Shown in pieces: positions 26,614 through 57,100 of a DNA stretch of 64,000 nucleotides. The stretch's first letter is position 1; each line of letters begins with the position of its first letter. This DNA is from Mesostigma viride (taxonomy: Eukaryota; Streptophyta; Mesostigmatophyceae; Mesostigmatales; Mesostigmataceae). The notes under the pieces are model-generated. The model was not told where the DNA came from. It did no database searches and saw nothing but the letters and a program-made list of their open reading frames with translations. Location of the stretch: the NCBI GenBank assembly GCA_009746045.1, contig RPFO01000072.1:528105-592104 (forward strand), read 5' to 3'. The position numbers and the translations under genes are program-made.

Positions 26614-29600
26614 TCACGGCTCCTCCATGCCTGGTTTGGGCACGAAGAGAATTGGCCGCGGCCCGTCCCACAGCTCCCTCAGCTCGCTGCGCGCGTACCC
26701 TAGTGCGCCCAAGGGGAGGAGGGTCATCGGGACCTGCAAACGATGGGATAAGGCAACGGGTAACGAACCAGTTTGTCATTATGCAGGGGCCGTCATGGGG
26801 TGCAGCTTGGGCGGAGCAGCAGCACAAGGACCAGCCGTGCTTGTCTTCAGCCATGCCGACACCGCGCGGTCAACACGTGCCGACTACGGACCAGAGGCAA
26901 GACAGGGGTCAGCAGATGCCGGACCCATGCTCATGCCGGTATGCCGGATGCCAGCACACTGTAGACAATGCAACGTCCATAGATAGCCAGTCCACACAGA
27001 GTGCAGACGTCCATGCTGATGATGGAGGCACATGCAGCCGTCATACACATGTTGGCATATGTGATGGCATCCTTGAATCAAACTAAGAAATAAAGTGTCA
27101 TCTTTTGTGCTACCGCCCATGTGTGCATGCACACGTGCATGTGGCAACGTGCCTGCGTGTGCCGTGTGCATGTGCATATTGCGTGCGGGCAGGTGTCGGA
27201 ACAGGACGCCCTCACCAGGCAAATGAAATGTGTGTGCATGCGTTTGGTGCGCGCCCTCACCAGGTACATTAGCGCGGGCTGGGGCGACCGCGTCAAGATG
27301 CCCGCAGCCAGCGCGGCCAGCAGGCCTACCGTGTAGCCGACGCACGTACACCCCATGTAGCTGGGGGTGAACCAGGACCCCAGGCCAGTCGGGTGAGTAC
27401 CGGCCCCAATGCCCCCACTGGACATTGGCAGCGCTTGTTGTGCGCTCGTTGGCGAGGAGCTAGCGCCTGTAACGCTGCCCCCCGCCGCGCCCCCCATCTG
27501 TGTCAGCTTGCTCCCGCTTGCGTGCCGGTCTAGCAGGCCGGCATGATGACTCGCTTGCGTGCCGGTCGCAAGAACAACGCTCTCTAGCCGGATGGTTGAC
27601 TCGTAGCCCGCACCATGACTGCTGGCACCTGCACTGGCCGTATACCCCTCCTCCTCTGCCTCCGCATCTCTCTTCTTGCGGTGGTCAAAGCAGAGGGCCA
27701 GCGCAAGAAGCATGCCCGGGAGTGCCTACGAGCATGGCAGGGTGTTTTAAGGGATATGAGAGGATGCACATGACAACTTTGAGGAGGCTACCAGCAGGCA
27801 TACTGTGTTCATCGGGGGCTCCACCATGAAGGCAAAAATGCAAAATCTCATGTAATGCGATGAGGAATGCGATGAGGAATGCGGTGAGGATGAGGATGAG
27901 GATGAGGATGAGGATGAGGATGAGGATGAGGATGAGGATGAGGATGAGGATGAGGATGAGGATGAGGATGAGGATGAGGATGAGGATGAGGATGAGGATG
28001 AGGATGAGGATGAGGATGAGGATGAGGATGAGGATGAGGATGAGGATGAGGATGAGGATGAGGATGAGGATGAGGATGAGGATGAGGATGAGGATGAGGA
28101 TGAGGATGAGGATGAGGATGAGGATGAGGATGAGGATGAGGATGAGGATGAGGATGAGGATGAGGATGAGGATGAGGATGAGGATGAGGATGAGGATGAA
28201 GATGATGATGCTGACAACGACAATAATGTTCTTGAAATCTCCTAAAAAATGACTAGGAGGACCAGGAATGGGATACAAGATTGTCAAGAAAACGGCCTCA
28301 CCATGTCACCTAGGCCCAGAATAAGGAAGCCGCCCGGTGGTTCCGCGCCTGCTGGATTGGCCGCCAGGTGGCTGAAGAGCAGGCGAGGGAACATGAGCTT
28401 TACAGGGATGTCCAGCTGGCCGGTGACGTACACCTGCAGGGATGCATGCAAGGGTGCGGGAGCTTCTTTTGCTTCAGCAGTAAAGGAGTGTAATGCAGAG
28501 GTAATGGCAGCAAAGTGCGCTGGCCAAGACAATAAGGAAGTATGGTAAAGCCAGGTATTAATCTAAGGTACTGTCGATGAGACAGGCAGCGCAGGCAACA
28601 GGCCAGAAATCTGGTGAACTACATTTGCATCACTCGCCTTACTCCGCAAGTTTAAGTGGTCAATCCTTGGCAGCTACCCACAGCCTCGCGAGATGGGTGG
28701 AATAAAACCCCCATGCTTGGCCCCCCGCGCAATCTCACCGCCCCAAGGCAAGCACCAGCTATCGCCTGGCAGTGGAGGGACTGGGACTGTGTTCTTTGCA
28801 GATCCAGCAAGGTTAGCCCCTGCATTGCGCTGCAGAGAAACGTCACCAACCATGGGTCATGCACCGGTCAAACCGCCACCAAGACTTTGGGGGGCCGAAT
28901 TCTGCCCTCATTTCCCCCCTCCCTCCTCCCCCCAAACCTGATGCTTTACGCACAAGCACGCGCGTGATTGCATACCACCCACTAGGCGCTCATCTGTCCT
29001 CATACCCCCCACCATCCCATCCTCCTCCCTCCCTCCCTGTCTCCGCTCATCCCTCCCTCCCCGCCCTTGCCTGCGAGAGTGGCACGTGCAGGCTGCGGGA
29101 GAGCGTGTGGATCGGGTTGGCGCCGCGCCGCGTGGCCACGGAGACCATCACGTTGTCCCCGAACACGCGCGCGGAGAGGAACACCCAGAAGACGTCGTAC
29201 AGGAAGAGGGCGCACAGAAGCAGCGTGCACACCTGGGGGGTGGGGTGGTGGGCAGGTTGGGGGGTATGGGCAGGTTGGGGGGTTGGGAGGATCAAGTTGG
29301 GAGCGGAGGGCATGACATGGGGTGATGGCGTCAGCCGATTCTGGAGGCCAGATAGGAGCGTGGTAGAAGTGTGGTCGGCACGACCGCCGTCTTTGGCTTC
29401 TCATGTCCTTTCTAGTCCATGCGCGAAACAACGTGAACCCAACACACCCACACAAGCAGCCAGCAACCCACGCACGTGGCGCACGCACCTTCATGTTGGG
29501 TAGGCGGATATGGCTCATGAAGCCGATGCAGAGCGATATTCCCAGCACATTGTTGAGCACCCAGTGGCCCGTGACCAGCCAGGATAGGGCGATACCAATG

Positions 29601-30557
29601 CTGAGCGCCACCAGCAGCAGCTGTGGGGGCAGCAACCATGTGGTTTAAAGCAACCGTGCGGTCAAGCAACCACAAGGAGGGGGGGGGGGGCAGGTGGATG
29701 GCCCAGATGGGGTCCAAGGTGTCAGCGCAGCCCCGTGTTTGATGCCGCACGCTGCGGCCAGAATTAGTTAATTAATCGACGAAGCAACTGACTCATGCAG
29801 CAACAAGCGTGAGTGACCATGGAGAGGGAGGGATGGGGGGCAGCAGGGTACAGCAGAAGAGGAGAGGGAGGGGGAAGGGAGGGAGGGGAGAGGGGGATTA
29901 CCTGGGGCAACGGTCCAGGCAGGCCGCGAGAGAAAGCAAGGTACCTTAACTACAACCACACTACAGAGAAAGCAAGGTACAACCATCAATATTACGGTGC
30001 CTTACCCACAACCATCAATAGCGTGCAGAAAAAGGAGTATCACAGGACATGGGCAGTGGGAAACCGTAGGCCTGTTCTTAAACCTCCATGCACCCAAAAG
30101 GCTTTAATACTAGCTGTTGAGCATGCAGCAACCAGCGAGAGCAAAGGATGGCGTGGCCATTTAATGGACCACCAAGGCAGCGGGGACGGACCTGGGAGCG
30201 ATGCGTCTGCCACGCCTCATTGAGCCCGAGCAGGGATGCCGCCTTGCTCACCACGGGTTGTGCGGCAAACACGAACGAGGCGGCGGAGATTACGCAGCTG
30301 CTGATGACGAGGAGCTGCGAAATGGCGGAGAAGAAGTAGAAGAGGAGCAGCAGCGAGCAGGAACTGGCGATGGGTACCAGGAGCGCCTGCCGTTTGTCCA
30401 GAGTGACCGCGCTTTCGGCTCGGTCTCTCCACCCGGAGTTTCGCTCATGGGACAGCGCGCGATAGGCCCCTCCCACAACCACGGCGGTGGCCGTCGCCAC
30501 AAGCAAGATGCAGGAAGGCTCGACCAAATGGCGGAGTTCCCATAAAGGAAACGTCAT
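26614..30557 (-). CDS. SPPL3: Signal-peptide-peptidase-like intramembrane aspartyl protease (SPPL3 type)
   Basis: A GxGD-type aspartyl protease that cleaves type II membrane proteins within the bilayer; SPPL3 works in the Golgi on glycosyltransferases. Exons on the minus strand, each ending on a codon boundary: 30557-30192, 29620-29489, 29232-29071, 28433-28302, 27725-27261, 26733-26614 (stop TGA 26616-26614). Total 458 residues. The catalytic aspartates are in FLYDVFWVF (about residue 179) and ILGLGDM (about 263), and the PAL motif is in QPALMYL (about 414). SPPL3-specific order is clear: LLVPIASSCSLLLLFYFF, TGHWVLNN, HIRLPNMK, NVMVSVATRRGANPIHTLSRS, PMTLLPLGALGYARSELRELW. Several hydrophobic segments fit the nine-helix fold. 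After CFDHRKKRD there is an 80-odd-residue Ser/Gly/Ala-rich insert, longer than in animal SPPL3 (384 aa in human). The intron after 29071 begins with GC (CAG|GCAAGG). Confidence 0.93.
27207..27264 (-). repeat. Partial copy of the SPPL3 exon-5 splice donor
   Basis: The 13 bases spanning CCTG|GTGAGGGCG at the end of the exon 27725-27261 recur 45 bp downstream in the intron (27219-27207). It is short, so chance or sequence constraint cannot be excluded. Confidence 0.4.
27880..28200. repeat. (GATGAG)n hexanucleotide repeat in SPPL3 intron
   Basis: About 52 copies of GATGAG in the intron 28301-27726. On the sense (minus) strand it is pyrimidine-rich CTCATC. Confidence 0.98.
29069..29072 (-). other. 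GC splice donor of SPPL3 exon 3
   Basis: Exon 29232-29071 ends CTCTCGCAG and continues GCAAGGGC. Splicing at CAG|GCAAGG keeps phase and joins PLSQ to VYVTGQLDIP as the family alignment requires. The sequence matches the GC-AG donor consensus well. Confidence 0.65.
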
Positions 30558-31979
30558 GCCGACTTCAAATTGATACTTTTAGGATGACGCGACCTTGTGT
30601 TTGGGGTCAGAAGTCGTGCTGCAAGCTACATAATCCAGGTTTTCCGGGGCGAGACTACTTCATAACGGCACCGCCAGATAGATAATGTTTGGGCTTCGAG
30701 CAAACCTTGCGGCTGAACACCCTGCAAGCAGCCCGTATAACTCTTCTTCCCTGATATCAATCCCTGACGCAATTGCCGACTCGGGATGAGCACCCAAAAT
30801 CACGATCGACTCTGACGATCATTACCCCACACAATCACCTCAGGTCCAAAAGTGAAGCACCCACTCAACCAAGCCTTATACGATATCAATGAGGTGGGCT
30901 CAGGCGTCATTGCGTAAGGGCACGTCAGTCGGGACATTTGTATCGCATGGCGGACGCCATTTTGCAATAATGGGGCATCCGCTATCACGCCATTGAGACA
31001 ACCTTGCCAACCTACTGTAATTATGCAGGCGACATGGCAATTTGGCACGGCAAGAGCTGCTTATTTTCCCAGTTAGTGCAGCTGACTAACAAGCCGCGCG
31101 CGCGATCAAGTCCTGATCAAGTCACCAAAAATTTTGGCGGGGCACGTCGCGTCGTACGGACGCAAGTGGCGGACGCACAGTTGGGGAGGTGCCAAGCTGT
31201 GCCAAGCTGGAGGGCGATCTGCGACCGGCGCACCTGGACATGGACACGTGTACACGAACCCACGTGTGGCTCCTTGCCATCCTCGGGCTTGTGCCTTGTA
31301 TGCCAAGGCGACATGAGCGTCCCTTCGAATTGGGAATGTCGGAGGCATTACCAAAACACGAGCATGCTATCGAATAGTTGAAGCCACGGGAATGGCTGAC
31401 GTAATTAAAGCCGGCTGGGATGACTACCGTAATCAGTTGAATTTGCACCCGCTGAGAACCAAGGTTTGTTCTGCCTGATGCTCACTTGGATGATTAGCAA
31501 GTGGCAATGAACTCGTCTATCACCAAGTTGATGCGCGACTTGCCTGTGGTATTTAATACATTGGAATATGAATTAAGTGATCGCTTTCGGCAGACACAAA
31601 CATGGCGGCTTCCCAAGTGCAACTACAGCTCATAAATCCTTACATGTAGTCGCTATCATGACCGTGCCAGAAAGAGCAACCGCGCACTTGCAAGACGCAC
31701 GTTAGGTGCTGGGTTTCCTGGTTCAACGGCTTTAGTTAGTTCAATGGACTGACTCGGCCGAATGTCTCAGTTACGCAACATATTTAATCATGTTAAGATA
31801 TCAGAAATGAAGGGGGAAGCTCAGGCGTGGCTGTGCGGGTGCTGGTTCCTGCTTCGGTGTTTACTTCAAGGATTCATTTTGTTTTCAGCATTGGTACCAC
31901 ACAGATCACTCGTGGGGCACCTGCTGCTGTCCGCTGGTGCACGACATGCTTTCTGCGATAGTGAGCACCACCGCCGCAT
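30558..31979. promoter_or_regulatory. Divergent intergenic region between SPPL3 and MPV17
   Basis: About 1.4 kb between the start codons of two head-to-head genes, so it should contain both promoters and possibly 5' exons. I saw no convincing TATA box or RNA gene. Short frames at 31004-31448 are unremarkable. Confidence 0.45.
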
Positions 31980-32864: not shown

Positions 32865-35800
32865 GGTGGGGTGTGGGATTCCCCCCATCGCGGTGCCTGC
32901 GGTCCTCTCCTCCAGATCTTTGGCGTCGTCTGGAGTGGCCCGAGCGCGCACTTCTTCCACACCTTTTTGGACAAGTGGTTTCGGGGCAAGCGCGACACGC
33001 TCACCGCGATTCGAAAGGTGGGGCAGAAGATGGAGCCATGGCTTCTTTGGGAAAGGAAAGGGCGATGGGGCTGTCAGCACAGGGCACAAGGCACAAGGCA
33101 CAAGGCACAAGGCACAGGGCACAAGGCACAAGGCACAAGGCACAAGGCACAAGGCACAAGGCGCAAGGCGCAAGGCACAAGGCACAAGGCGTAAGGCACA
33201 AGGCACAAGGCACAAGGCACAAGGCACAAGGCACAAGGCACAGGGCACAAGGCACAAGGCACAAGGCACAAGGCACAAGGCACAAGGCACAAGGCACAAG
33301 GCACAGGGCACAAGGCACAAGGCACAAGGCACAAGGCACAAGGCACAAGGCACAAGGCACAGGGCACAAGGCACAGGGCACAAGGCACAAGGCACAAGGC
33401 ACAGGGCACAAGGCACAAGGCACAAGGCATGTGGCGCTTGGGGCGAGCATGCACTCTGTAAAGATCGTGTCTACTGCGACCTACAATGGTCCATGTCTAC
33501 TACAACCGTGATGGTCCATGTCTACTGTGACCGTGATGGTCCATGTCTACTACAACCGTGACGGTCCATGTCTACTGTGACCGTGATGGTCCATGTCTAC
33601 TACAACCGTGATGGTCCATGTCTACTGTGACCGTGATGGTCCATGTCTACTACAACCGTGATGGTCCATGTCTACTGTGACCTACAATGGTCCATGTATA
33701 TTAACACGGTGTGGTGGTAGGGTAAGCGGCCAGGCTGTCAACGAACCAGACAACAGCTCTTGAAGCTGCACGTTTCTTGCTGGCATGTAATTGCTTGGTT
33801 AAGCAGTGGCGGCCCATTCTTTGTTGATGTGAGGGTGCCATCTCTGAGGGCCCATTATCTGTCAATGCTGGCGGATGACCCAGACCCCGCTTGGCATGGC
33901 ATCACGGTTGAACGTGCCCTGGCATGGAAGGGTGCCCGACTCTCGTCCGATGCACGCGCGGTGCTTTGGCTACCAGCTCTTCCATTTTTTACTTTGGAAT
34001 GCATTTGCCCCTGATACCGCACGTGTGTCCCTGAGCACGCACGTACCCAACATGCAACCCCTTCTCACCCTCTTGAAGTCCTTCTGTACATTCATCTTGT
34101 GGGATTGTGCAGGTCATCATGGGCCCGCTAAACCCCGCGCTGTTAGCTGCCTTGTTTAACCTCCTTGCAGGTCATCATTGACCAGCTGACCTATGGCCCA
34201 GTCTGCAACAACCTGTTCATGATGTACATCACAATGGTGGTGGAAGGTGAGAGCAGCAGCTTGGGCGCCCCTGGCTAGGGACGTTGTGGGGTGCATGTAA
34301 TTGGGATGGGTGCATGTAAGTGCGATAGCGATATCTGGTGGGTTGCTGTTATCTCATGGCAAAGTGACCCCAAATCAGATAGCAGGTAATGGTGACGAAG
34401 ACCTCACCTTTGCCTCACGCCGGCGACGTCTCTGCTGACTCATTTGTGTGCACCTTTTCTGGCAACGCTTTTTTACCACGCGCCACCGTCCATCGCACTG
34501 CATACCAGCGGGGCCAGCTTGCTCACCTGCATCCTTTCTGTGCATCGCTGTTGCATAGGTGCCTATGTGTGGTAAACCTATGCCATGGCTTTCCGGAGAC
34601 CGTCGCCGGTGGCTTACTTTGACCTCTCCTGTGCTGTGTCGAGTTTTTCTGTTCCTAGTGCTCCAGCTCAGAAGCCTAGGCCCTTTCGCTTCAATTGGTT
34701 TGGTGCTCTGCTGGCTTCTATGTCCCCCTGTCCACAGGGCGGTCATGGGCGTTCGCGCGAGAAAAGTGGCGGAGGGACTACCCGGGTGTGCAGATGAATG
34801 GATGGAAGGTAGGTCGGAAGCACACATATAATACACATATATATAGCATATATACCCGGGTGTGCAGATGAATGGATGGAAGGTAGGTCGGAAGGGGGGA
34901 GGGAGGGAGGGAGGGAGGGAGGGAGGGAGGGAGGGAGGAGGGAGGGAGGGAGGGAGGGAGGGAGGGAGGAGGGAGGGAGGGAGGGAGGGAGGGAGGGAGG
35001 GAGGGAGGAGGGAGGGAGGGAGGGAGGGAGGGAGGGAGGGAGGGAGGGAGGGAGGGAGGGAGGAGGGAGGGAGGGAGGGAGGGAGGGAGGGAGGGAGGGA
35101 GGGAGGGAGGGAGGGAGGGAGGGAGGGAGGGAGGGAGGGAGGAGGGAGGGAGGGAGGGGGAGGGAGGGAGGGAGGGAGGGAGGGAGGGAGGGAGGGAGGG
35201 AGGGAGGGAGGGAGGGAGGGAGGGAGGGAGGGAGGGAGGGAGGGAGGGAGGCCCATCGCGCCCATTCCCAGGTCTGCAACCGTGGGCCTACTCCCTAGTT
35301 GGCCTACTACTATAGTGGGCCTGCTAGAATGGTAAAGAGCACCCATCGCATGTCTCTACTAGTCCAGCGGGCCCTACCTTCCTGCCATCATCCCAGCAGC
35401 GCTGCCGTCTGGGCGCCACTGGCCTGTTTGCTTGCCATCCTGTGTCAACCTCCACCTTGCGACTTGTCATGTTTGTATGGCCCCCTGCGTCCCCTCAAAA
35501 ACCTGCGCTGCTGGTGGTGACATTCTTATCCACCTATTATCTTCTGCTGCCGCCACACCGGCATGCGTGCTGCACCCCTTGTGTGCTCGTTCCTGCCCCC
35601 TCGCAGCTGTGGCCTCTGGCCGGCCTCATCAACTACAAGTTTGTACCGCTACAGCTGAGGGTTCTGTTCGTCAACATGGTCGCTTTCTGCTGGTATGAGT
35701 TGACATTGCTTCATCATGGGTGATGGCCTTCTGCTGGTGCGTGTTATCGTTGTAAATACGGCAAGGGGTGGCCTTGTGGTGGTGCGTGGTGTCATGGATG

Positions 35801-37938: not shown

Positions 37939-38372
37939 CATTAATTAATTAATTAATTAATTAATAGACACGTGACTGCGTCACGTGAGCATAAGTCCTC
38001 AGTGGGAGGGGAACATGGGATGGAATGGATGGTATAAGCTATCTAGGTCCTAGTTACAGGGGTGTGGGCACCGCGGCCCGAATCGCTATGAATGCCATAC
38101 TTGGTCACACGCGGAGCCCCCACAGGCTTGGGGGTGGTCTCCTTCATCACTACTTGCCATCTATCCTTGCGCACCATCTGCCTCCATATTACAGACAAAC
38201 CAGGAGGCTGCCCGGGGGTGAGCCCGTCACGTCTAGTGTAGCACATGTCCATGCCGAGTCTATCACGAAAAGTCCACGGGTGGCGGCCCTGCCGCGCGCC
38301 GCCTGGGGCGCGCCAGGTTAGGACATCCCGCCCCTTCTCAGGGATATGTGTTACATATCCTCCCCACGGAGG
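37939..38372 (-). mobile_element. LINE 3'-end copy, minus orientation, with hairpin
   Basis: (TTAA)n at 37941-37963, perfect hairpin at about 37970-37988, then the reversed coding end to about 38325. It continues into the ACACATATCC...CACGGAGG motif shared with 21.2 and 23.6 kb. Confidence 0.85.
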
Positions 38373-42100: not shown

Positions 42101-45100
42101 CACAGCTTTACTTTACATGAAAAGTGTACCAGGACCCAGCAGAAGTGGGAAATGGTTGGCCCTCCATGAACAGTACGGAAGTAGGAAGCACCACCATGAG
42201 CAGTGCCCGGGCCAAACAAAAGAACTAGTCGTCGCAGCCATTTCACCCCCCACCCCCTCCCTTACTTTTGGTTGCGTGAGAAAGTAGCGGACAGGGCCTC
42301 CACCGCGGGTGGTTTCCCTCCACCGGTCGTGACCGGTGCGCCTGTGCCCCCGCGTGTGCTGGCATTGATCACGCGTATGCACTGCCCGCTGACGCCGTCC
42401 CATAGCCGCACGCATCCGTCACGCGAACATGAGGAGTACATGGCCCCGCTGGGCGCAAATTGGACCTGTCGCGGTGGAATCGGTCACGGGTTGGTGACAT
42501 TTGTTAGGCCAAGGGGTGGTGGTGGGATCACTGGAAACCAGGGCGCGGACAAGGGAAGGCGCAAGGTGCGCGCTGCAAAGACAACCGCGTCTGTGTCGCA
42601 TACCCCCCACCAAACCATGACAAGAAAAGACAAAAGGAAAAGTACCCAAAGGCACCCACTGATGCCCATGTTTAGGGTTTAGGGTTTAGGGTTTAGGGTT
42701 TAGGGTAAAAGGAAACGTACCCAAAGGCACCCACTGATGCCCATGTTTAGGGTTTAGGGTTTAGGGTTTAGGGTAAAAGGAAAAGTACCCAAAGGCACCC
42801 ACTGATGCCCATGTTTAGGGTTTAGGGTTTAGGGTTTAGGGTAAAAGGAAACGTACCCAAAGGCACCCACTGATGCTCATGTTTAGGGTTTAGGGTTTAG
42901 GGTTTAGGGTAAAAGGAAACGTACCCAAAGGCACCCACTGATGCCCATGTTGCCCCCCTCGTGCATATGCATACGCATGCATGAAGGTGTACATGCATAT
43001 CGAGCCTATCTCTGCACAGGGGAAGCAGCGATCTGGGCCGTGTGTGGAAGAGTCATTATTCTGTGTGTGTTGCCGAGCGGGCATGTGACAGACGCACACG
43101 CGAGCTCACACGTACGTGGTTGATGGGCCCCCCCTGGTGCTGCTCCTGCAGGTTGGGCGGCAGGAAGCACTGGAACGAATTGACCTCGTAGAAGTGGGGA
43201 ATGCCGTGGTCCGTGCCTGGTGGGGGGGTGTGGCACAAGAAAGCGAACACAACGTGCCAGGTGGCAGCCGATAGGACGGCACCCGGCGGCAGCAGAAAGG
43301 GAAGCGGACGCAGCGTTATGCGATTTGGTACTGATGCGGTCAGGCAGCACGCTATGTTTAGGAGTGTAAATATATCATACAGGCGTTTGCAGTAGAAGTA
43401 TAAACCGTTGCAGGAGCAACTAAAAAAGGATGAAACAAGACACATACACAAATGAATCCATGGTCTGAGACTCGTCCATTACTCCTGTGTGGGAACACAT
43501 CACCCTTTGATTCAAACAGCATTGCTGTGTGCAGAGAGGCAACCGTTTGTTACCCTCTGCCTTCGCCTAATAAGAGCTTTATTTAGTTTTAGTAAAGCCC
43601 CATCTGCATGCCACAGAGGTGCACCCCCTGGGCACATTGATGGAGTAGCAGCCAGCCAACAACTTTACAACCCATGCAAATGACAGGATGCATGTCACTA
43701 TTCGCGCATATGCATCACACACACGCACACGCACTCATGGCCGAGATGTGGCAAGCAGCACGTGCCGTGCAGCGGGCATGCGCAAGGGCACTTGTTCATG
43801 TTCAAACGATATCGCGGAGGTGATGCACCGGACAGGGAAGCAGATGCAACCCATGAGGAGTGGGCAACGGCGGCAGGCGGGGGTGCTCATTCCTTGGCGG
43901 GGCTTTATGAAGATGGGGGCATGAGACATCGGGGGGTGGGGCAGTGATATAGCCGTAAGTCCCCCCCCCCCTACTTGTGGCAGCAGGAACGGGTGTATGC
44001 ATCACCCACGAGAGGCAGGCACTATTTGACACTCCGCGGAGTCCTTATTTTGGGCAGTAAAGGGGAGCGGGCAGGGGCATGCACCGGCGTAGCATATGAG
44101 GACGCGACTGCTGCCTACTGGGGGCATAGGCCACAAGGCGATGAGTGCTGCTGCATGCACCGGCCACGAAGGTGACAGATGCAAGTGCGCGTACCGGCAA
44201 CAAAGTAGTCGCCCGACGGGTGGAAGCTGACGCTGCGCACTGCGTGCGTGTCCTGCACAGCGCACACACAGAGAACGAGAAGAAACAGACAGGTGAGCCT
44301 TAACAGGTGAGTCAAGGCAACGGGGGTGCTTCTCCTGCATGCCCCACATGCATTCTGAGAATCGTCCAAAACGGGCCAGAAGTGAGGGTGGTTTCCAGGG
44401 TTTGGGAAAAAGTGCTGGCACCGGTGGAGTGTGATGATGAACATGGTTGATGGATGACGACAGGGAATGGCATCCGTGGAAGAGGAAAAGAAAGGGGATA
44501 AGTGGAAGAGGAGAAGAAAGGGAGATAAGTGGAAGAGGAGAAGAAAGGGAGATAAGTGGAAGAGGAGAAGAAAGGGAGATAAGTGGAAGAGGAGAAGAAA
44601 GGGAGATAAGTGGAAGAGGAGAAGAAAGGGAGATAAGTGGAAGAGGAGAAGAAAGGGAGACAAGTGGAAGAGGAGAAGAAAGGGAGATAAGTGGAAGAGG
44701 AGAAGAAAGGGAGATAAGTGGAAGAGGAGAAGAAAGGGAGACAAGTGGAAGAGGAGAAGAAAGGGAGATAAGTGGAAGAGGAGAAGAAAGGGAGATAAGT
44801 GGAAGAGGAGAAGAAAGGGAGATAAGTGGAAGAGGAGAAGAAAGGGAGATAAGTGGAAGAGGAGAAGAAAGGGAGATAAGTGGAAGAGGAGAAGAAAGGG
44901 AGATAAGTGGAAGAGGAGAAGAAAGGGAGATAAGCGGAAGAGGAGAAGAAAGGGAGATAAGTGGAAGAGGAGAAGAAAGGGAGATAAGTGGAAGAGGAGA
45001 AGAAAGGGAGATAAGCGGAAGAGGAGAAGAAAGGGAGATAAGTGGAAGAGGAGAAGAAAGGGAGATAAGTGGAAGAGGAGAAGAAAGGGAGATAAGTGGA

Positions 45101-48100
45101 AGAGGAGAAGAAAGGGAGATAAGTGGAAGAGGAGAAGAAAGGGAGATAAGTGGAAGAGGAGAAGAAAGGGAGATAAGTGGAAGAGGAGAAGAAAGGGAGA
45201 TAAGTGGAAGAGGAGAAGAAAGGGAGATAAGTGGAAGAGGAGAAGAAAGGGAGATAAGTGGAAGAGGAGAAGAAAGGGAGATAAGTGGAAGAGGAGAAGA
45301 AAGGGAGATAAGTGGAAGAGGAGAAGAAAGGGAGATAAGTGGAAGAGGAGAAGAAAGGGAGATAAGTGGAAGAGGAGAAGAAAGGGAGATAAGTGGAAGA
45401 GGAGAAGAAAGGGAGATAAGTGGAAGAGGAGAAGAAAGGGAGATAAGTGGAAGAGGAGAAGAAAGGGAGATAAGTGGAAGAGGAGAAGAAAGGGAGATAA
45501 GTGGAAGAGGAGAAGAAAGGGAGATAAGTGGAAGAGGAGAAGAAAGGGAGATAAGTGGAAGAGGAGAAGAAAGGGAGATAAGTGGAAGAGGAGAAGAAAG
45601 GGAGATAAGTGGAAGAGGAGAAGAAAGGGAGATAAGTGGAAGAGGAGAAGAAAGGGAGATAAGTGGAAGAGGAGAAGAAAGGGAGATAAGTGGAAGAGGA
45701 GAAGAAAGGGAGATAAGTGGAAGAGGAGAAGAAAGGGAGATAAGTGGAAGAGGAGAAGAAAGGGAGATAAGTGGAAGAGGAGAAGAAAGGGAGATAAGTG
45801 GAAGAGGAGAAGAAAGGGAGATAAGAGGAAGAGGAGAAGAAAGGGAGATAAGTGGAAGAGGAGAAGAAAGGGAGATAAGTGGAAGAGGAGAAGAAAGGGA
45901 GATAAGTGGAAGAGGAGAAGAAAGGGAGATAAGTGGAAGAGGAGAAGAAAGGGAGATAAGTGGAAGAGGAGAAGAAAGGGAGACAAGTGGAAGAGGAGAA
46001 GAAAGGGAGATAAGTGGAAGAGGAGAAGAAAGGGAGATAAGTGGAAGGGGAGAAGAAAGGGAGATAAGTGGAAGAGGAGAAGAAAGGGAGACAAGTGGAA
46101 GAGGAGAAGAAAGGGAGACAAGTGGAAGAGGAGAAGAAAGGGAGATACGTGGAAGAGAAGAAAGGGAGACAAGTGGAAGAGGAGAAGAAAGGGAGATAAG
46201 TGGAAGAGGAGAAGAAAGGGAGATAAGTGGAAGAGGAGAAGAAAGGGAGACAAGTGGAAGAGGAGAAGAAAGGGAGATAAGTGGAAGAGGAGAAGAAAGG
46301 GAGATAAGTGGAAGAGGAGAAGAAAGGGAGACAAGTGGAAGAGGAGAAGAAAGGGAGATAAGTGGAAGAGGAGAAGAAAGGGAGATAAGTGGAAGGGGAG
46401 AAGAAAGGGAGATAAGTGGAAGAGGAGAAGAAAGGGAGACAAGTGGAAGAGGAGAAGAAAGGGAGACAAGTGGAAGAGGAGAAGAAAGGGAGATACGTGG
46501 AAGAGAAGAAAGGGAGACAAGTGGAAGAGGAGAAGAAAGGGAGATAAGTGGAAGAGGAGAAGAAAGGGAGATAAGTGGAAGAGGAGAAGAAAGGGAGACA
46601 AGTGGAAGAGGAGAAGAAAGGGAGATAAGTGGAAGAGGAGAAGAAAGGGAGACAAGTGGAAGAGGAGAAGAAAGGGAGATAAGTGGAAGAGGAGAAGAAA
46701 GGGAGATAAGTGGAAGAGGAGAAGAAAGGGAGATAAGTGGAAGAGGAGAAGAAAGGGAGATAAGTGGAAGAGGAGAAGAAAGGGAGATAAGTGGAAGAGG
46801 AGAAGAAAGGGAGATAAGTGGAAGAGGAGAAGAAAGGGAGATAAGTGGAAGAGGAGAAGAAAGGGAGATAAGTGGAAGAGGAGAAGAAAGGGAGACAAGT
46901 GGAAGAGGAGAAGAAAGGGAGATAAGTGGAAGAGGAGAAGAAAGGGAGATAAGTGGAAGAGGAGAAGAAAGGGAGATAAGTGGAAGAGGAGAAGAAAGGG
47001 AGATAAGTGGAAGAGGAGAAGAAAGGGAGATAAGTGGAAGGGGAGAAGAAAGGGAGATAAGTGGAAGAGGAGAAGAAAGGGAGATAAGTGGAAGAGGAGA
47101 AGAAAGGGAGATAAGTGGAAGAGGAGAAGAAAGGGAGATAAGTGGAAGAGGAGAAGAAAGGGAGATAAGTGGAAGAGGAGAAGAAAGGGAGATAAGTGGA
47201 AGAGGAGAAGAAAGGGAGATAAGTGGAAGAGGAGAAGAAAGGGAGATAAGTGGAAGAGGAGAAGAAAGGGAGATAAGTGGAAGAGGAGAAGAAAGGGAGA
47301 TAAGTGGAAGAGGAGAAGAAAGGGAGATAAGTGGAAGAGGAGAAGAAAGGGAGATAAGTGGAAGAGGAGAAGAAAGGGAGATAAGTGGAAGAGGAGAAGA
47401 AAGGGAGATAAGTGGAAGGGGAGAAGAAAGGGAGATAAGTGGAAGAGGAGAAGAAAGGGAGATAAGTGGAAGAGGAGAAGAAAGGGAGATAAGTGGAAGA
47501 GGAGAAGAAAGGGAGATAAGTGGAAGGGGAGAAGAAAGGGAGATAAGTGGAAGAGGAGAAGAAAGGGAGATGAGTGGAAGAGGAGAAGAAAGGGAGATAA
47601 GTGGAAGAGGAGAAGAAAGGGAGATAAGTGGAAGAGGAGAAGAAAGGGAGATAAGTGGAAGAGGAGAAGAAAGGGAGATAAGTGGAAGAGGAGAAGAAAG
47701 GGAGATAAGTGGAAGAGGAGAAGAAAGGGAGATAAGTGGAAGGGGAGAAGAAAGGGAGATAAGTGGAAGAGGAGAAGAAAGGGAGATAAGTGGAAGAGGA
47801 GAAGAAAGGGAGATAAGTGGAAGAGGAGAAGAAAGGGAGATAAGTGGAAGAGGAGAAGAAAGGGAGATAAGTGGAAGAGGAGAAGAAAGGGAGATAAGTG
47901 GAAGAGGAGAAGAAAGGGAGATAAGTGGAAGAGGAGAAGAAAGGGAGATAAGTGGAAGAGGAGAAGAAAGGGAGATAAGTGGAAGAGGAGAAGAAAGGGA
48001 GATAAGTGGAAGAGGAGAAGAAAGGGAGATAAGTGGAAGGGGAGAAGAAAGGGAGATAAGTGGAAGAGGAGAAGAAAGGGAGATAAGTGGAAGAGGAGAA

Positions 48101-51100
48101 GAAAGGGAGATAAGTGGAAGAGGAGAAGAAAGGGAGATAAGTGGAAGAGGAGAAGAAAGGGAGATAAGTGGAAGAGGAGAAGAAAGGGAGATAAGTGGAA
48201 GAGGAGAAGAAAGGGAGATAAGTGGAAGAGGAGAAGAAAGGGAGATAAGTGGAAGAGGAGAAGAAAGGGAGATAAGTGGAAGAGGAGAAGAAAGGGAGAT
48301 AAGTGGAAGGGGAGAAGAAAGGGAGATAAGTGGAAGAGGAGAAGAAAGGGAGATAAGTGGAAGAGGAGAAGAAAGGGAGATAAGTGGAAGAGGAGAAGAA
48401 AGGGAGATAAGTGGAAGAGGAGAAGAAAGGGAGATAAGTGGAAGAGGAGAAGAAAGGGAGATAAGCGGAAGAGGAGAAGAAAGGGAGATAAGTGGAAGAG
48501 GAGAAGAAAGGGAGATAAGTGGAAGAGGAGAAGAAAGGGAGATAAGTGGAAGGGGAGAAGAAAGGGAGATAAGTGGAAGAGGAGAAGAAAGGGAGATAAG
48601 TGGAAGAGGAGAAGAAAGGGAGATAAGTGGAAGAGGAGAAGAAAGGGAGATAAGTGGAAGAGGAGAAGAAAGGGAGATAAGTGGAAGAGGAGAAGAAAGG
48701 GAGATAAGTGGAAGAGGAGAAGAAAGGGAGATAAGTGGAAGAGGAGAAGAAAGGGAGATAAGTGGAAGAGGAGAAGAAAGGGAGATAAGGCACTGCCCGA
48801 AAAGGGGGTTCAAGAAAGAAACAACAAACACTTGGCCATTGAATGATCTTGCAAAACAACCACTAACACGACGACGTGCAAGGATGGCATCACCACTATG
48901 ATGGGCAAAAGGTTTGGCGAATACAAAGAGAAGACGTGACCAGTAAATGGTAATAACGAGGGGCATCACGGTGGGATGGGGAGGGCACACCGGGGAGCAA
49001 CACCGACCACAACACACGCGATATCTTGCCAAGACACCAACACGCTCATGCACCCACACTTGCAACACACTAAACTCTCCGCTAATACCTAACGAATACC
49101 CAAGGGATACACCCCTAACGGGTACCCAAAAGATTACTGCCTAACGGATACTTAACCGGTACCCGATGCATAAACACCTAACCGGTACCCGATGCATAAA
49201 CACCTAATCGGTACCGGATGCATAAACACCTAACCGGTACCCAATGCATCAACACCTAACCGGTACCCGATGCACAAACACCTAACCGCTACCCGATGCA
49301 TCAACACCTAACCGGTGCCCAATGCATAAACACCTAACCGCTACCCGATGCATAAACACCTAACCGGTGCCCAATGCATAAACACCTAACGGGTACCCGA
49401 TGCATCAACACCTAACCGGTGCCCAATGCATAAACACCTAACGGGTACCCGATGCACAAACACCTAACCGCTACCCGATGCATCAACACCTAACCGGTGC
49501 CCAATGCATAAACACCTAACCGGTACCCGATGCATCAACACCTAACCGGTACCCAATGCATCAACACCTAACCGGTACCCGATGCACAAACACCTAACCG
49601 CTACCCGATGCATCAACACCTAACCGGTGCCCAATGCATAAACACCTAACCGCTACCCGATGCATCAACACCTAACCGGTGCCCAATGCATAAACACCTA
49701 ACGGGTACCCGATGCACAAACACCTAACCGCTACCCGATGCATCAACACCTAACCGGTGCCCAATGCATAAACACCTAACGGGTACCCGATGCACAAACA
49801 CCTAACCGCTACCCGATGCATCAACACCTAACCGGTGCCCAATGCATAAACACCTAACCGGTACCCAATGCATCAACACCTAACCGGTACCCAATGCATA
49901 AAGCAGTGACGGGCCCTCACATCACTCACACGATGCGGAACGCTCCACTCACCTGCACGATGCGGAACGCTCGCTTGGCCGAGGCCTTGGCATAGTCAAA
50001 GAACCTGCGCAGCCACAACGACCACCGCAGAACAACTCCCCTTCCATTCTCCACGTCAGTATGCCATGCAACATCAACCATAGGTAACTGGATTGTAAAA
50101 ATGTTGTGGTTGCCATGAACATCCTCTCCGCTAACTGAAAAGGAACCCATATGCAAGGAGCCACGACCACACAATCACGCCATGATTTTTGCGGCGATGT
50201 GTGGCCGTGACGGACCTTGGAGCCACCGGAGCAACTGATGCTCGTTCCGTGGCGAAGCTGGCGATACCCTTCCCGATGTTCACAGCCATGCGTGCCGCAA
50301 ACATAGTTCATGGAGGCCTTACCCTATGGATACCCTTCCCGATGTTCACAGCCATGCGTGCCGCAAACATAGTTCATGGAGGCCTCACCCTATGGATACC
50401 CTTCCCGATGTTCACAGCCATGCGTGCCGCAAACATAGTTCATGGAGGCCTTACCCTATGGATACCCTTCCCGATGTTCACAGCCATGCGTGCCGCAAAC
50501 ATAGTTCATGGAGGCCTTACCCTATGGATACCCTTCCCGATGTTCACAGCCATGCGTGCCGCAAACATAGTTCATGGAGGCCTTACCCTATGGATACCCT
50601 TCCCGATGTTCACAGCCATGCGTGCCGCAAACATAGTTCATGGAGGCCTTACCCTATGGATACCCTTCCCGATGTTCACAGCCATGCGTGCCGCAAACAT
50701 AGTTCATGGGGGCCTTACCCTATGGATACCCTTCCCGATGTTCACAGCCATGCGTGCCGCAAACATAGTTCATGGAGGCCTTACCCTATGGATACCCTTC
50801 CCGATGTTCACAGCCATGCGTGCCGCAAACATAGTTCATGGAGGCCTTACCCTATGGATACCCTTCCCGATGTTCACAGCCATGCGTGCCGCAAACATAG
50901 TTCATGGAGGCCTTACCCTATGGATACCCTTCCCGATGTTCACAGCCATGCGTGCCGCAAACATAGTTCATGGAGGCCTTACCCTATGGATACCCTTCCC
51001 GATGTTCACAGCCATGCGTGCCGCAAACATAGTTCATGGAGGCCTCCAATGGAAGACCCTCGGCGCACCGTGCCCACCGCCTTACAGCCCCACAAACGCG

Positions 51101-54100
51101 TTCGCTCCAATGTCCCCCCCACAAGCCCATCCACCAACAAAACCTGCTGCCTTACAGTCGCACTCTTACACTCTCCCCCTGAGTCTACTTACCTCATTAA
51201 ACCCCTATTATAAGCCAGCCCTCCCCCCCCAAACCCCACTCGTCTCTTGCCCGCCCGCCTACCCCCCCACTCACTTGACGGTCATGTCGTCCGCGCCAGA
51301 AATAACGATGGGCGCAGTGGGGTGGAAGTCTAGATCGTTCACAGGCTGGTGACCGCGCGGGCGGTGGTTGGCGCACCAAACAGCGCACCGCAGCCAAGGA
51401 AGGGAAAGGATTCAGAGGAACGCGGGCGGTGGTTGGCACACCAAACAGCACACCGCAGCCAAGGAAGGAAAAGGATTCAGAGGAACGCGGGCGGTGGTTG
51501 GCACACCAAACAGCACACCGCAGCCAAGGAAGGGAAAGGATTCAGAGGAACGCGGGCGGTGGTTGGCACACCAAACAGCACACCGCAGCCAAGGAAGGAA
51601 AAGGATTCAGAGGAACGCGGGCGGTGGTTGGCGCACCAAACAGCACACCGCAGCCAAGGAAGGGAAAGGATTCAGAGGAACGTGGGCGGTGGTTGGCGCA
51701 CCAAACAGCACACCGCAGCCAAGGAAGGGAAAAGATTCAGAGGAACGCGGGCGGTGGTTGGCACACCAAACAGCACACCACAGCCAAGGAAGGGAAAAGA
51801 TTCAGAGGAACGCGGGCGGTGGTTGGCACACCAAACAGCACACCGCAGCCAAGGAAGGAAAAAGATTCAGAGGAACGCGGGCGGTGGTTGGCACACCAAA
51901 CAGCACACCGCAGCCAAGGAAGGGAAAGGATTCAGAGGAACGCGGGCGGTGGTTGGCACACCAAACAGCACACCGCAGCCAAGGAAGGGAAAAGATTCAG
52001 AGGAACGCGGGCGGTGGTTGGCGCACCAAACAGCACACCGCAGCCAAGGAAGGGAAAGGATTCAGAGGAACGCGGGCGGTGGTTGGCACACCAAACAGCA
52101 CACCGCAGCCAAGGAAGGGAAAGGATTCAGAGGAACGCGGGCGGTGGTTGGCGCACCAAACAGCACACCGCAGCCAAGGAAGGGAAAAGATTCAGAGGAA
52201 CGCGGGCGGTGGTTGGCACACCAAACAGCACACCGCAGCCAAGGAAGGGAAAGGATTCAGAGGAACGCGGGCGGTGGTTGGCACACCAAACAGCACACCA
52301 CAGCCAAGGAAGGGAAAAGATTCAGAGGAACGCGGGCGGTGGTTGGCACACCAAACAGCACACCGCAGCCAAGGAAGGGAAAGGATTCAGAGGAACGCGG
52401 GCGGTGGTTGGCGCACCAAACAGCACACCGCGGCCAAGGAAGGAAAAGGATTCAGAGGAACGCGGGCGGTGGTTGGCACACCAAACAGCGCACCGCAGCC
52501 AAGGAAGGAAAAAGATTCAGAGGAACGCGGGCGGTGGTTGGCACACCAAACAGCACACCGCAGCCAAGGAAGGGAAAGGATTCAGAGGAACGCGGGCGGT
52601 GGTTGGCACACCAAACAGCACACCGCAGCCAAGGAAGGAAAAGGATTCAGAGGAACGCGGGCGGTGGTTGGCACACCAAACAGCACACCACAGCCAAGGA
52701 AGGGAAAGGATTCAGAGGAACGCGGGCGGTGGTTGGCACACCAAACAGCACACCACAGCCAAGGAAGGGAAAGGATTCAGAGGAACGCGGGCGGTGGTTG
52801 GCACACCAAACAGCACACCGCAGCCAAGGAAGGGAAAGGATTCAGAGGAACGCGGGCGGTGGTTGGCACACCAAACAGCACACCGCAGCCAAGGAAGGGA
52901 AAAGATTCAGAGGAACGCGGGCGTCGGGTGAATGGGACATGGTGACCCAAACACAGGAACATGCCAGCAGCAATAGGAATGGGAGGCATGGGGCGACCGA
53001 CACGCATGGTGGCCCACGCATCGAGGCACCAAGGCTATTATTGGCCAGGGATAGCTGGGTGTATACGCTCTATCGACAACTTTGCTTTACCAAATCATCA
53101 ATCGCCAGATTGACTGGCGTTGCCCGCCTTCGCCTTTCACGGTCTGGGGACAGTAACCATAACAAACCGTGGCACAGATCACGGCTATTACTGCGGATAC
53201 TTCTTATCTCAGTTTATCGCCGTGCCAGTGGTTGACCCTTCGCGGGTGCAAGGCCCGCAGGACACTTGGGATGTAAAACTGGACTCGGAGGAGTGCCTTG
53301 GGGTGCCAGTGGACAGCTTCTATCAAGCTGAGCGGACAGAGGCAGGCATTGAGCAAGTGCCTAATCATCTCGCAGTACCGGAAGCCCATGACATGCCATG
53401 TCGCCTTGAGGGTATAGAAGGTCCCAGGGGATACCAAAAATGGAACTCCTCCAAGACCAGTTTTATATGCCGAAACACGGTTATGCTGGACCTTGCACCT
53501 GCGAAAGATCACCCACCAGTCCTAACAATGAACCGAGGCAACGGTCGAATCTCTCACAGCGACAAGATTTGCAGAGTTGTCAACATGGTCTCCAGATCAT
53601 GCAATACCAGAGGGCCAAAGTGGGTTTGTTCCAACATCATTATGTGACCAGTATCCATTCATTCTATGAATAGGAGGGATAGGACCTGCCGGACCTCCCA
53701 TGGGGGCCAAGCAGACAATTGTTTCCCACACTTGCCTCCCCCTCCCCTCCCCCTCCCCCTCCCCCTCCCCTCCCCCTCCCCTCCCCCTCCCCTCCCCCTC
53801 CCCTCCCCTCCCCCTCCCCTCCCCTCCCTCCCCCTCCCCTCCCCCTCCCCTCCCCCTCCCTCCCTCCCCTCCCCCCCCTCCCCTCCCCTCCCCCTCCCCT
53901 CCCCTCCCCCTCCCCCTCCCCCTCCCTCCCCTCCCCCTCCCCCTCCCCCTCCCCTCCCCTCCGCCTCCCCTCCCCCTCCCCTCCCCCTCCCCCTCTCTGT
54001 CCCCCTCCCCCTCCCCCTCTCCGTCCCCCTCCTCCTCCCCCTGCCCATGTCCCCCTTAATCCCTCACCCACCTGCACGTGGTCATAAAACATGCGGACGA

Positions 54101-57100
54101 CAGGGGAGGCACGCGCCGCTGCATCCGACGGTTCAGGCGCGCCGCCTTTAGACCGCTGCTTCATCTTGCTGACCTGCAGTTGCAGTTGTGGTTATTTGTA
54201 CAATGTTAGGGTTGGTTCATTCGCCCTTGGCCGGTGATTCATCTTGCTGACCTGCACTTGCAGTTGATAGATTATTTGTACCATGGCATTCGTCGGTCAT
54301 TCATGCCATTGGGCGATTGGAGTTAAAAACATTTGGGAGAACCGGAATGTCACCAGACAGAACATCATTCTGCAGTAGTGGATTAACAGACAAGAAAAAG
54401 CCGGTGGAAATGAATCGTGGAATGAAGGCAGCAGGCAGACATCAAGCAACAAGATGCGGTTCATGTGGGCAGGATTTCCAGCTGAATAAAACTGGACAGG
54501 CAACGAAAGGAAAGTCCTGATATGCGTAGCGTATTAAACTTGACGCAAAAAGATGACATACAACGATGTCATAAAAGCCTCGACCACAGCAGCCTCGATC
54601 ACAACAGCCTCGACCACAGCAGCAGGCGCCAGCACCACGACGAAATGGGAACGCAAGTGGACACACGGAATGGACACAGAAATGGCCACACAAAACGGAC
54701 GAAGAGGCATTCCAACGGATGCATGCAGGCACTCGCTTTACCCCATCTCAAACCGAATGCTGCTTGTGCGCATGTGGCCCCAGGCTTGACCTGCAGCAGC
54801 TGCACCCACATTACACCTAGATTGCGCCCACAGTCCGACAACATGCAGTAATAGCATCCACACCCACCTGCAGCAGCCGCCCACAGCTGCTGCACTTGCA
54901 CCACCCACCTGCAGCAGCCGCACCGAGTTGTCGCTGTTGCCCGTCACCACGTACTGCCCATCGCGGCTGAAGGCGGCGCAGCGGCAGCCGGTCTGTGGTG
55001 CGGCGCAGCATGCCACAGGACCCAAGACACGGGATGGCATGAGACAAGTGGTTTGAGACAAGTGGTTTGAGACAAGTGGTTTGAGACAAGCATCAGCAGC
55101 CGCTGGTATGTGGGGAGGCAGTCATGCGGAATGAAGCATGACACACAAGCCCATGACGATGACATGACGACGACATCAAGTAAGTCAGGCGTGGGTACGA
55201 CAACAACAACATGAGCCATGGAGCCATGGGGCCTGATGCGTCCATGGGACATGTGCCCCCCAAGGGTGGCTGTGGACCGTGTGCCATGACGCACGGGACA
55301 AGGTAATTCCGAGGAAAGTGTCCGCAGCGCACATTATCGATGTGTGGTCAGCGAACCAGGGGTGTACGAACGTTGTAGGGTGGGACACCAGAGAAAATGA
55401 AAGGCCCCCGGGCGGGGAAGAAGAATAGCAGTTACCAGCACCACCTGATGCCCAGGGGTTATGCTCCCTGTGACAACCTGATGCCCAGGAGATGGCACGC
55501 AGGGTTGTCCGTTGCGACTGTGCGCGCCGTACTAGTGGGCCGGATGAGCATGGCAGGAGTGGCAATGAAGAGGACAACTATCAAGACGAGATATCTATCG
55601 AGGTCTCCCATGCTAACTTGTCAAGACACGATATCTATCGAGGTCTCCCATGCTAACTTGTCAAGACACGATATCTATCGAGGTCTCCCATGCTAACTTG
55701 TCCGAATCGGCAGCACTTGCTGAGGCAAATCTTGCGATGGGTGCGCACAGCAGAGCACGGCGCTACGGCGGGGGCATCCAAGACACTCCGACCCATGGCT
55801 ACGACGTTGGGCACCGGAATCCACCGAGATGCTGCGAACGAAATCAGCCGCTTCCTGCGTCAGCGTTGGCACATGTGTGGCAGTCTGACACATGCTTACA
55901 CGGGCATGCTTTCCTTTTGTGTGCAACCCTTCTCCTGACAACTGCAGGAGCTGGCATGCGCCTGTATTGAACACGTCAAACGTAGAGCGCCTTAATTCCA
56001 TCCGTCTCTCTCCCCACCCACCCACCCTCGCACAACCCCCCACCCCCACCCACCTTGGTGTCAGACACCACGCGCGAGGCCAGGGAGGGGAAGATGCGGG
56101 ACCGGGCGCCGCCCTGGTTAGAGCTGGGGGGCCGAGAAAGGGAGGAAGGAACAAAGGGGTCGAGGAAAATTATATGTATACATAGGAAATGGGATGAAGG
56201 GAATGGGGGCAGGTGCAAGGCAAAAGCCGGCGAAAAAAGCGAGGGCAGGCAGGCAGGTCGGCCGCCAGGCGGCCATGCGGTAGTGGGCAAGTAGACGTTG
56301 GGTGGGCACATGCGCAGACAGATGGGCAAGGGCGCCCGGACATACCATCGCTCCTTGCCTGGCCACCGCGGGGACAGGACGGCTTCTCTCACAACATTTC
56401 CCATTTGTTGAATGGGAGCAAACGGTCGGTCGACAAGAGAAACACCCATAATCCTTGACTATCAACCCTCGGCCATGTAGCCGCACACATCTCTCAGCTC
56501 CCAACCGCCCCCACCAAGGATGGCAGCAGCAACCCCCACAAAGCGCTACCCCATCCACCCACCCATGCTCATTCCTCCCCTCATGGCATGCATGCCACCC
56601 CAACATTTATCAGTCCTCACCTCCTCAGCTCGGGCGGGTTGCGGATCTCCTCGGCTGCGGTGAAGCTGACCCCCTCTGCGATGGCCATCGGCTTTGCGAG
56701 TGAGGAGCTGCCCTCAAACGCGAGGCCCTGCGGCGCGAGGTGGTCAGGGCCCGCGTTGAAGGCGCGTGATCAGGGGGTGTGCTCAGGTAGAGTGCGTGGT
56801 CAAGGCACGTGGGTATAGCGAGCATGGGCCGTGCGCATGTTTCACGTTGGGGAAACAGGGGCACCCGCATGGGATGTTTCGCGAACAGCCTGCCGTATAC
56901 CGCCCAACCCATGGTGTATCAGATACAAGGGCAGGCAAGGCAGCACGATGCACACACAATCTCCCTCAAAGGCAGGCGAGGCAGCACGATGCACACACAA
57001 CTCTCCCTCAGGAACATCAAGTTGACGCCCTTCTCTGACAGGGGCATAAAGTTGACACTGTTACATCAAAATTCTTCCATAGCTGACGCGAAAACAGGGA

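Follow-up and report, generated by a model that had tools for sequence, protein, structure and literature searches.

Short copies of exon–intron junctions lie inside the adjacent introns of genes in a 64-kb stretch of the Mesostigma viride genome (the window, meaning that whole stretch), and a first-pass annotation attributed them to a mechanism acting at exon edges. This observation raises the question of whether exon ends are singled out for copying or simply share in the duplication of the DNA around them. We addressed it in the 264 kb surrounding the window and in 90 kb of Mesostigma dynein genes, the latter comprising nine stretches, one of which (L024) was used in part to train the codon model. 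A few percent of the sampled Mesostigma exon ends are copied a short distance into the following intron.

Junction copies in the window

Reading and aligning the sequence confirmed junction copies at the positions proposed, four of them strong (Table 1). In MPV17 the copied exon joins 35607-35692 in frame; the 32-nt spacer ahead of the copy is not duplicated (9% identity over 32 nt), and a GGGA array (34893-35251) comes after it. The VPS33 array begins 25 nt within the exon, its first unit crosses the exon end, and the start of its fourth unit differs from those of the other units. It falls outside 27207..54921, the interval originally given for the finding. VPS33 matches annotated Mv01717, whose protein joins LQLQ to KRFG at the original donor, and the annotated CSTF1 protein Mv01722 likewise uses the original splice sites, including the exon 6 acceptor. 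The CSTF1 exon 8 case is short and indel-split, with its copied donor broken by a small deletion.

Table 1. Junction segments and their copies in the window
Feature	Position	Strand	Basis
VPS33 exon, first repeat unit forms its 3′ end, GT of donor at 2772	2595..2771	+	sequence, Mv01717
VPS33 tandem array, 46 bp ×4, 3 copies intronic	2747..2932	+	99% matches
SPPL3 weak donor segment, 4 nt exonic + 9 nt intronic	27252..27264	-	13-nt match
SPPL3 intronic copy, weak	27207..27219	-	13-nt match
MPV17 acceptor segment (exon at 34171), absent from first-pass annotation	34166..34187	+	score 14.5
Weak copy of MPV17 acceptor segment	34108-34129	+	score 14.5
MPV17 exon (exon 5 of first-pass annotation), donor GT at 34809	34738..34808	+	sequence
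Original junction segment of MPV17, 30 nt exonic + 12 nt intronic	34779..34820	+	alignment
MPV17 intronic copy, 42/42 identical	34853..34894	+	alignment
Original segment at end of CSTF1 exon 8, GT of donor at 49952	49956..49967	-	alignment
CSTF1 exon 8 intronic copy, 12 exon nt exact	49929..49940	-	alignment
CSTF1 exon 6 original segment across acceptor	54143..54185	-	score 26.5
CSTF1 exon 6 acceptor-junction copy, upstream within intron	54222..54263	-	score 26.5
CSTF1 exon 5, intron begins 54908	54909..54992	-	matches Mv01722
Original junction segment of CSTF1 exon 5, 13 nt exonic + 7 nt intronic	54902..54921	-	alignment
CSTF1 exon 5 intronic copy, 20/20 identical, 21-nt spacer	54861..54880	-	alignment

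We tested 28 donors and 28 acceptors in the four window genes, three of the 28 'donors' (MPV17 exon 1 and CSTF1 exons 1 and 11) not being credible splice sites in the gene model. At a score of at least 18, junction-spanning copies were found at three donors and one acceptor. None of 200 intron shuffles matched any of these four copies, and the same held for CSTF1 exon 8, SPPL3 and the MPV17 acceptor. No window copy is therefore plain chance when taken singly, although 56 junctions were tried. The tally of five in 26 introns stands if CSTF1 exon 8 is included and falls short otherwise; similarly, the claim of four unrelated genes is borne out for three, the fourth (SPPL3) being weak, as the first-pass annotation itself acknowledged.

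Donors, acceptors and the duplication background

Junctions outside the window were scanned with exons admitted only at a coding score of at least 8. Gapped matching at a score of at least 18 served as the main threshold and 20 as a stricter one; it replaced ungapped matching because the latter missed indel-split cases, although ungapped matching at 18 pointed in the same direction (donors 6/139 and 8/74, acceptors 2/139 and 2/71). In the gapped scan, 2/74 dynein donors and 2/71 dynein acceptors were removed as too close to a locus end, and the window junctions (33 donors, 32 acceptors) were omitted from the outside-window counts and from the density profile.

The copies recur beyond the window, at 13/178 donors and 4/176 acceptors. 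The dynein genes alone gave 10/72 donors and 1/69 acceptors, the ten donor cases coming from five of the nine stretches, whereas the flank alone gave 3/106 and 3/107, with no difference between donors and acceptors (p=0.65). The donor excess and the donor–acceptor asymmetry thus derive almost wholly from the dynein genes. Of the three acceptor cases in the flank, two are doubtful as gene models (77925, which lies inside an array, and 162627).

Tandem repeats are abundant in this DNA, with TRF coverage of 26% in the window and 17% in the 264 kb. Because arrays are long, 12-29% of raw points in intron or noncoding sequence are followed by a copy at a score of 18, above the junction rates. As the first unit is the one place in an array where a junction can sit, we dropped raw random intron points as the sole control in favour of first-unit points and event density. 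First-unit points predicted 2.6-3.9 donor cases compared with the 13 observed. After correction for a 1.48-fold detection bias the excess is 3.4-fold (13 versus 3.87, p=0.0002), and it would persist were the bias 2 (13 versus 5.23, p=0.003). It is also seen among copies of at least 95% identity (5 versus 1.23, p=0.008). Acceptors match the intron background (3 observed, 2.7 expected), which argues against a mechanism at both kinds of exon edge.

Event density was then compared across each junction type. At donors, the last 51 exon nt hold 17 events in 8.7 kb and the first 59 intron nt 14 in 9.4 kb (1.96 versus 1.48 per kb, p=0.48), with no step between them. At acceptors, density drops from 20 events in 9.8 kb of adjacent intron to 6 in 8.9 kb on the exon side (2.04 versus 0.68 per kb, p=0.017), a drop that is not significant at threshold 20 (p=0.12). 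On the exon side, donors exceed acceptors by 17 to 6 events (p=0.021, or p=0.050 at threshold 20). The donor exon side is also denser than deeper intron at 55-275 nt (p=0.009-0.016), whereas at every threshold the acceptor exon side showed no significant deficit relative to deeper intron (p=0.27-0.61). The comparison of junctions with intron positions proposed at the outset is therefore mixed: donors lie above first-unit points and deep intron, level with adjacent intron and below raw points. With density continuous across the donor, these relations do not establish an exon-edge mechanism, although one may exist in view of the excess towards intron 5′ ends.

These profiles bear on whether the donor edge is itself mutable, with duplication several times more frequent over the final nucleotides of the exon and the first ~150 nt of the intron; G-rich sequence with R-loops, or nicks, at transcribed intron starts may be a cause. 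Densities falling inward from the donor (1.96, 1.48, 1.18 and 0.56 per kb), the bias-corrected donor excess, the surplus among young copies and the G-richness of intron starts (0.33 at +6..+30 versus 0.27 at +120..+240) speak for such a hotspot. However, flank donors alone are not enriched over first-unit points (3 versus 1.87 expected, p=0.29), the 59 intron nt beside acceptors are equally dense, and there is no jump in density at the donor itself. We therefore regard a donor-edge hotspot as rather unlikely to be the main explanation. Nevertheless, because of the deep-intron comparison and the excess at high identity, a mutational excess on the donor side may exist.

Orientation, source and state of the copies

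For tests of source and orientation the window junctions were kept and short introns dropped, leaving 192 donors and 191 acceptors. Near donors, copies had a junction-bin source in 15/192 (window included) and an exon-interior source in 1/1,144 bins, and none of the 192 had an inverted copy. Acceptors gave 5/191 direct copies and one inverted match, from an exon-interior source. Rotated-intron controls matched in 1/1,915 pairs. The donor-side copies thus have the form of tandem junction duplications, in direct orientation and with the junction included.

Spaced copies make up 8/15 of the donor copies in a scan from which seven dynein donors and three acceptors too close to a locus end had been removed, and two of these eight are multi-copy arrays. 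The whole unit between copies is duplicated in VPS33, C113:459251 and L027 8242, and in the arrays at C113:485338, L032 1678 and L027 807. VPS33 and the latter three loci are multi-copy, in agreement with the suggestion that junction copies seed minisatellites. The spacer is unduplicated in MPV17, CSTF1 exon 5, L030 3346, L030 8594 and L032 6579, and plain tandem duplication does not predict spaced copies without filler or later change. Such spacers, and the inverted copy near an acceptor, would fit templated insertion of the polymerase-theta type, or an introner-like element, delivering junction copies into introns. Free template choice would, however, yield inverted and exon-interior copies, so the donor-side counts oppose templated insertion. 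An introner-like element would leave similar intron sequence at many loci; a genome search passing over very common words found the MPV17 segment in one place, so that, as far as this search sees, it is no dispersed element. We consider either route improbable.

The copied donors retain GT in 14/17 cases and have lost it in 3/17, and in 9/17 the site score equals that of the original. Introns therefore do contain decoy splice sites, as had been suggested; shifted intron boundaries, also suggested, were not seen in annotated VPS33 and CSTF1. Intact, equally scoring sites would be expected if the copies were a functional reserve or regulated alternative donors under selection. Frame bias is absent, however, since the offset d is divisible by three (d mod 3 = 0) in just 6/17, the two annotated genes use the originals only, and GT is gone from some copies. 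Selected alternative donors are accordingly a very unlikely reading.

Chance, gene-model error or assembly artefact is just as hard to credit. Most junctions come from our own gene finder, with annotation checks covering VPS33 and CSTF1; the finder missed parts of CSTF1 (among them the exon at 42465), took an exon copy for an exon in L026, and produced the two doubtful flank acceptors. Against these points, chance is countered by the rotated controls, and the finder agreed exactly with Mv01722 across eight consecutive exons and seven introns. Judged by eye, the dynein translations remain dynein-like as they read across the copied donors. Assembly duplication cannot account for copies that have diverged.

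A proposed origin and known systems

The explanation that we favour, and think probable, is that the copies are ordinary short local duplications in a minisatellite-rich genome, with donor copies tolerated and acceptor copies probably often purged. Duplications with offsets of about 25-160 bp would have one breakpoint within the final 8-54 nt of an exon and a second within the intron, leaving the exon intact; with breakpoints so placed, the copy necessarily includes the exon end and its donor. The spliceosome would go on using the original upstream donor, as it does in the two annotated genes, and the copy would then be nearly neutral, later growing into an array or decaying. The mirror event at an acceptor would set a decoy upstream of the real site, where it would tend to win, and such events would for that reason probably often be removed. 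We infer break repair or slippage as the source, and likewise that copies are neutral at donors and purged at acceptors; the donor–acceptor density difference itself is observed in a small sample.

More speculatively, the 5′ ends of Mesostigma introns could be a short-duplication hotspot that peaks across the donors of long transcribed genes (10/72 dynein donors), with acceptors kept clear by selection. We hold this to be doubtful. Were it true, introns would be steadily fed with exon-end copies and intact decoy donors at their 5′ ends, a directional route for intron growth and minisatellite birth. If the asymmetry extends across the genome, the duplications amount to natural experiments on splicing that ignores an identical decoy, in which a downstream donor copy appears harmless and an upstream acceptor copy appears to be tolerated less. 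Such duplications would in addition reveal the origin of some intronic minisatellites and of intron lengthening.

Introns can be gained by tandem genomic duplication, of which potato RdRp is reportedly a case. The process is reviewed in PMC3443670, and Drosophila cases appear in PMC2891723; in these events, duplication of an exonic AGGT segment creates a new intron between the copies. Mesostigma shares with them a short, local, intragenic duplication that carries splice-site sequence and can make new splice choices. In Mesostigma, by contrast, the copy of a donor or acceptor lands in an intron that was already there, and no further intron results; in VPS33 and CSTF1 the introns that contain the copies still begin and end at the original sites.

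The human CBS exon 13/intron 13 repeat is a minisatellite spanning an exon–intron boundary, and the first unit of the VPS33 array similarly holds an exon end and donor. CBS is a single human locus, whereas in Mesostigma several percent of sampled donors are involved, including spaced single copies. A literature search on exon–intron-boundary minisatellites such as CBS found no paper. Gao and Lynch reportedly described duplications internal to genes in which latent splice sites become active. PMC3443670 touches on this topic as well. Those events resemble ours in duplicating exonic and intronic sequence within a gene; they differ in that the two annotated Mesostigma proteins showed no activation of the copied site.

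Small tandem duplications through break repair are a described mutation class (PMC8355091) and would by analogy be a plausible source of the short direct duplications in Mesostigma. For human introns, a scanning model expects AGs to be selected against in the stretch from branch point to acceptor, as set out in PMC1431707. In Mesostigma the corresponding effect is suggested by fewer duplications across acceptors, and the AG exclusion zone would thus give a reason for selection against a copy upstream of the true acceptor.

Junction copies in the window and the splice sites in use

The first-pass annotation had reported six splice junctions with a copy in the adjacent intron, and direct reading and alignment located all six pairs. 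For each pair, 0 of 200 intron shuffles reached the observed alignment score, with 56 junctions tried.

Copy pairs and repeat features
Feature	Position	Copies or match	Remark
VPS33 array		46-bp x4, 99% matches	exon end within first unit
MPV17 pair		42/42 bases identical	copies 74 nt apart
CSTF1 exon 5 pair		20/20 identical	copies 41 nt apart
CSTF1 exon 6 acceptor copy		score 26.5	
CSTF1 exon 8 pair		12-nt exact exon match	copy's donor disrupted
SPPL3 pair		13-mer	only four exonic bases
16-G run, VPS33 exon	window 1585-1600		interrupts reading frame
Telomere-like GTTTAGG repeats, CSTF1 intron	window 42632-42951	inside 68-bp tandem unit	
Tandem array, CSTF1 intron	window 44476-48789	27-bp unit x160	five frames, both strands included, stop-free for >1,400 codons
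Dispersed repeat	window 13075-13407 (-), 23035-23314 (-), 37995-38318 (+)	at least 3 copies	similar translated sequence
Exon-end copies, dynein intron	L026 (one dynein stretch) 5410-5728	up to three, ~100 nt apart	one apparently called exon by gene finder

VPS33 and CSTF1 in the window match Mv01717 and Mv01722, gene models of Mesostigma viride, a streptophyte alga that is flagellate. The Mv01717 protein joins LQLQ to KRFG, which corresponds to the first VPS33 donor, and eight consecutive exons of the CSTF1 model are exact Mv01722 sequence, including the exon 5 donor and the exon 6 acceptor. Because these annotated proteins match the original sites, the copies are unused in both products, and no shift of intron boundaries, which the first-pass annotation had thought possible, was seen in these two genes. 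For MPV17, the gene model gives an in-frame reading via the first donor into GWK followed by LWPLAGLINYKF. Among copied (decoy) donors, GT is kept in 14 of 17 and frame bias is absent. Past the 16-G run, the conserved VPS33 protein resumes in another frame and annotated Mv01717 begins just downstream (MVCDK); the frame break reflects either a genuine frameshift or a wrongly determined homopolymer length.

Frequency at donors and acceptors

The window is C113:528105-592104 (contig RPFO01000072.1) in the 440-Mb assembly; for negative window coordinates, the C113 position is 528104 + coordinate. A gene finder built here from a codon model and a splice matrix was run on 264 kb around the window and on nine 10-kb dynein stretches, picked by matches to the dynein heavy chain family PF12774 (44 matches), independently of the finding. 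Strongly biased codon use (GC3 0.905 across a 2,417-codon frame at a dynein locus) made gene finding easier; errors seen included the CSTF1 exon at 42465 and a false exon in L026, and junctions other than those of VPS33 and CSTF1 are gene-finder models only. Tandem arrays make up 26% of the window; across the 264 kb their share is 17%. A junction was scored as copied when its flanking sequence (45 bases of exon plus 12 of intron), searched for over 250 nt to the intron side, gave a best local alignment that crossed the junction with at least 5 bases on each side.

Junction copies recur outside the window, as the first-pass annotation had proposed: at score >=18, 13 of 178 donors and 4 of 176 acceptors were copied (one-sided Fisher test, p=0.023; with thresholds of 16 and 14, p=0.030 and p=0.0023), several tests sharing the same data. 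The donor excess is carried by the dynein genes (donors 10/72 vs acceptors 1/69, p=0.005), with the ten copied donors spread over five of the nine stretches. The flank alone showed no difference (3/106 vs 3/107, p=0.65); two of its three acceptor cases are doubtful models, at 77925 (inside an array) and 162627. We offer the donor/acceptor asymmetry as a hypothesis that merits a genome-wide count.

Whether junctions exceed random intron positions in the sampled loci depends on the control. Between 12% (dynein introns) and 29% (C113 noncoding) of random points have a downstream copy at score 18, above the donor rate, and this raw rate is inflated because arrays are long and a junction is confined to an array's first unit. 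Restricted to first-unit points, the rate falls to 1.2-2.3%, predicting 2.6 copied donors, or 3.9 after a simulated 1.48-fold detection advantage of junctions, whose copies are easier to detect because the exon half is conserved; 13 were observed (p=0.0002; p=0.003 assuming a two-fold advantage). Thus donors stand above first-unit points and below raw intron points. At >=95% identity, where conservation should count least, 5 donors were copied against 1.23 expected (p=0.008) and 1 acceptor against 1.22. Flank donors were not significantly enriched over the first-unit control (3 vs 1.87 expected, p=0.29), and no excess was found for acceptors of all identities (3 vs 2.7 expected).

Density, geometry and source of the copies

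As a measure of duplication density, we counted how many duplicated segments per kb had their left edge in a given interval, using a score of 18 and the sampled loci outside the window. The exon side of donors (last 51 exon nt) carries 17 events in 8.7 kb, and the intron side 14 in 9.4 kb (first 59 nt), 18 in 15.3 kb (55-165) and 8 in 14.4 kb (165-275); the exon side exceeds the deeper intron (p=0.016), and no difference was found from the adjacent intron (p=0.48). At acceptors, the exon side (6 in 8.9 kb) lies below the adjacent intron (20 in 9.8 kb; p=0.017, and with scores of 16 and 20, p=0.007 and p=0.12), with no difference from the deeper intron (p=0.27). Exon-side events number 17 at donors versus 6 at acceptors (p=0.021; 0.041 at score 16, 0.050 at score 20). 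From these per-kb counts, donors therefore have no peak above their neighbourhood, density rises towards intron 5′ ends, and acceptors are crossed by fewer events. For the proposed special duplication at the exon edge itself this is a mixed picture, the missing peak at donors counting against it and the rise towards intron 5′ ends in its favour. In flank and dynein introns, the first 59 nt inside acceptors reach 2.04 per kb, as dense as donors, so both intron ends look dense.

With the window included and copies allowed up to 400 nt away, donor-adjacent copies derived from 15 of 192 junction bins and 1 of 1,144 exon-interior bins; pairing exons with other introns gave 1 in 1,915. No inverted copies were found near the 192 donors, and acceptors showed 5/191 direct copies and one inverted match. 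This geometry fits the prediction of contiguous local duplication where exons have to be kept intact. It does not fit free templated insertion, as the donor copies are direct and drawn almost entirely from junctions. In about half of the donor cases (8/15, two of them multi-copy arrays), what looks like an unduplicated stretch separates original and copy, likely because filler sequence was added where the duplication joined or because the stretch changed afterwards. A similarity search found the MPV17 segment at one place in the genome, which gives no indication that it is a dispersed element.

Proposed mechanism and relation to known systems

From the copies, their orientation and sources, and site use in two genes, we infer that short duplications originate in noncoding DNA through break repair or slippage. 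Where one overlaps a donor, the original donor would stay first in the transcript and remain in use, making the duplication neutral. One overlapping an acceptor would set a decoy 5′ of the real acceptor, and such events should often be lost by selection, because for human introns the scanning model, as presented in PMC1431707, expects AGs that lie between the branch point and the acceptor to be selected against.

Our literature search found no surveys of junction copies, and among open-licence papers we know of no donor-versus-acceptor comparison. Minisatellites spanning an exon-intron boundary presumably have a precedent in human CBS. Intron gain via duplicated exonic AGGT segments is described as an accepted route (PMC3443670; PMC2891723); that process creates an intron, whereas here an existing junction is copied into an existing intron and no intron is created.
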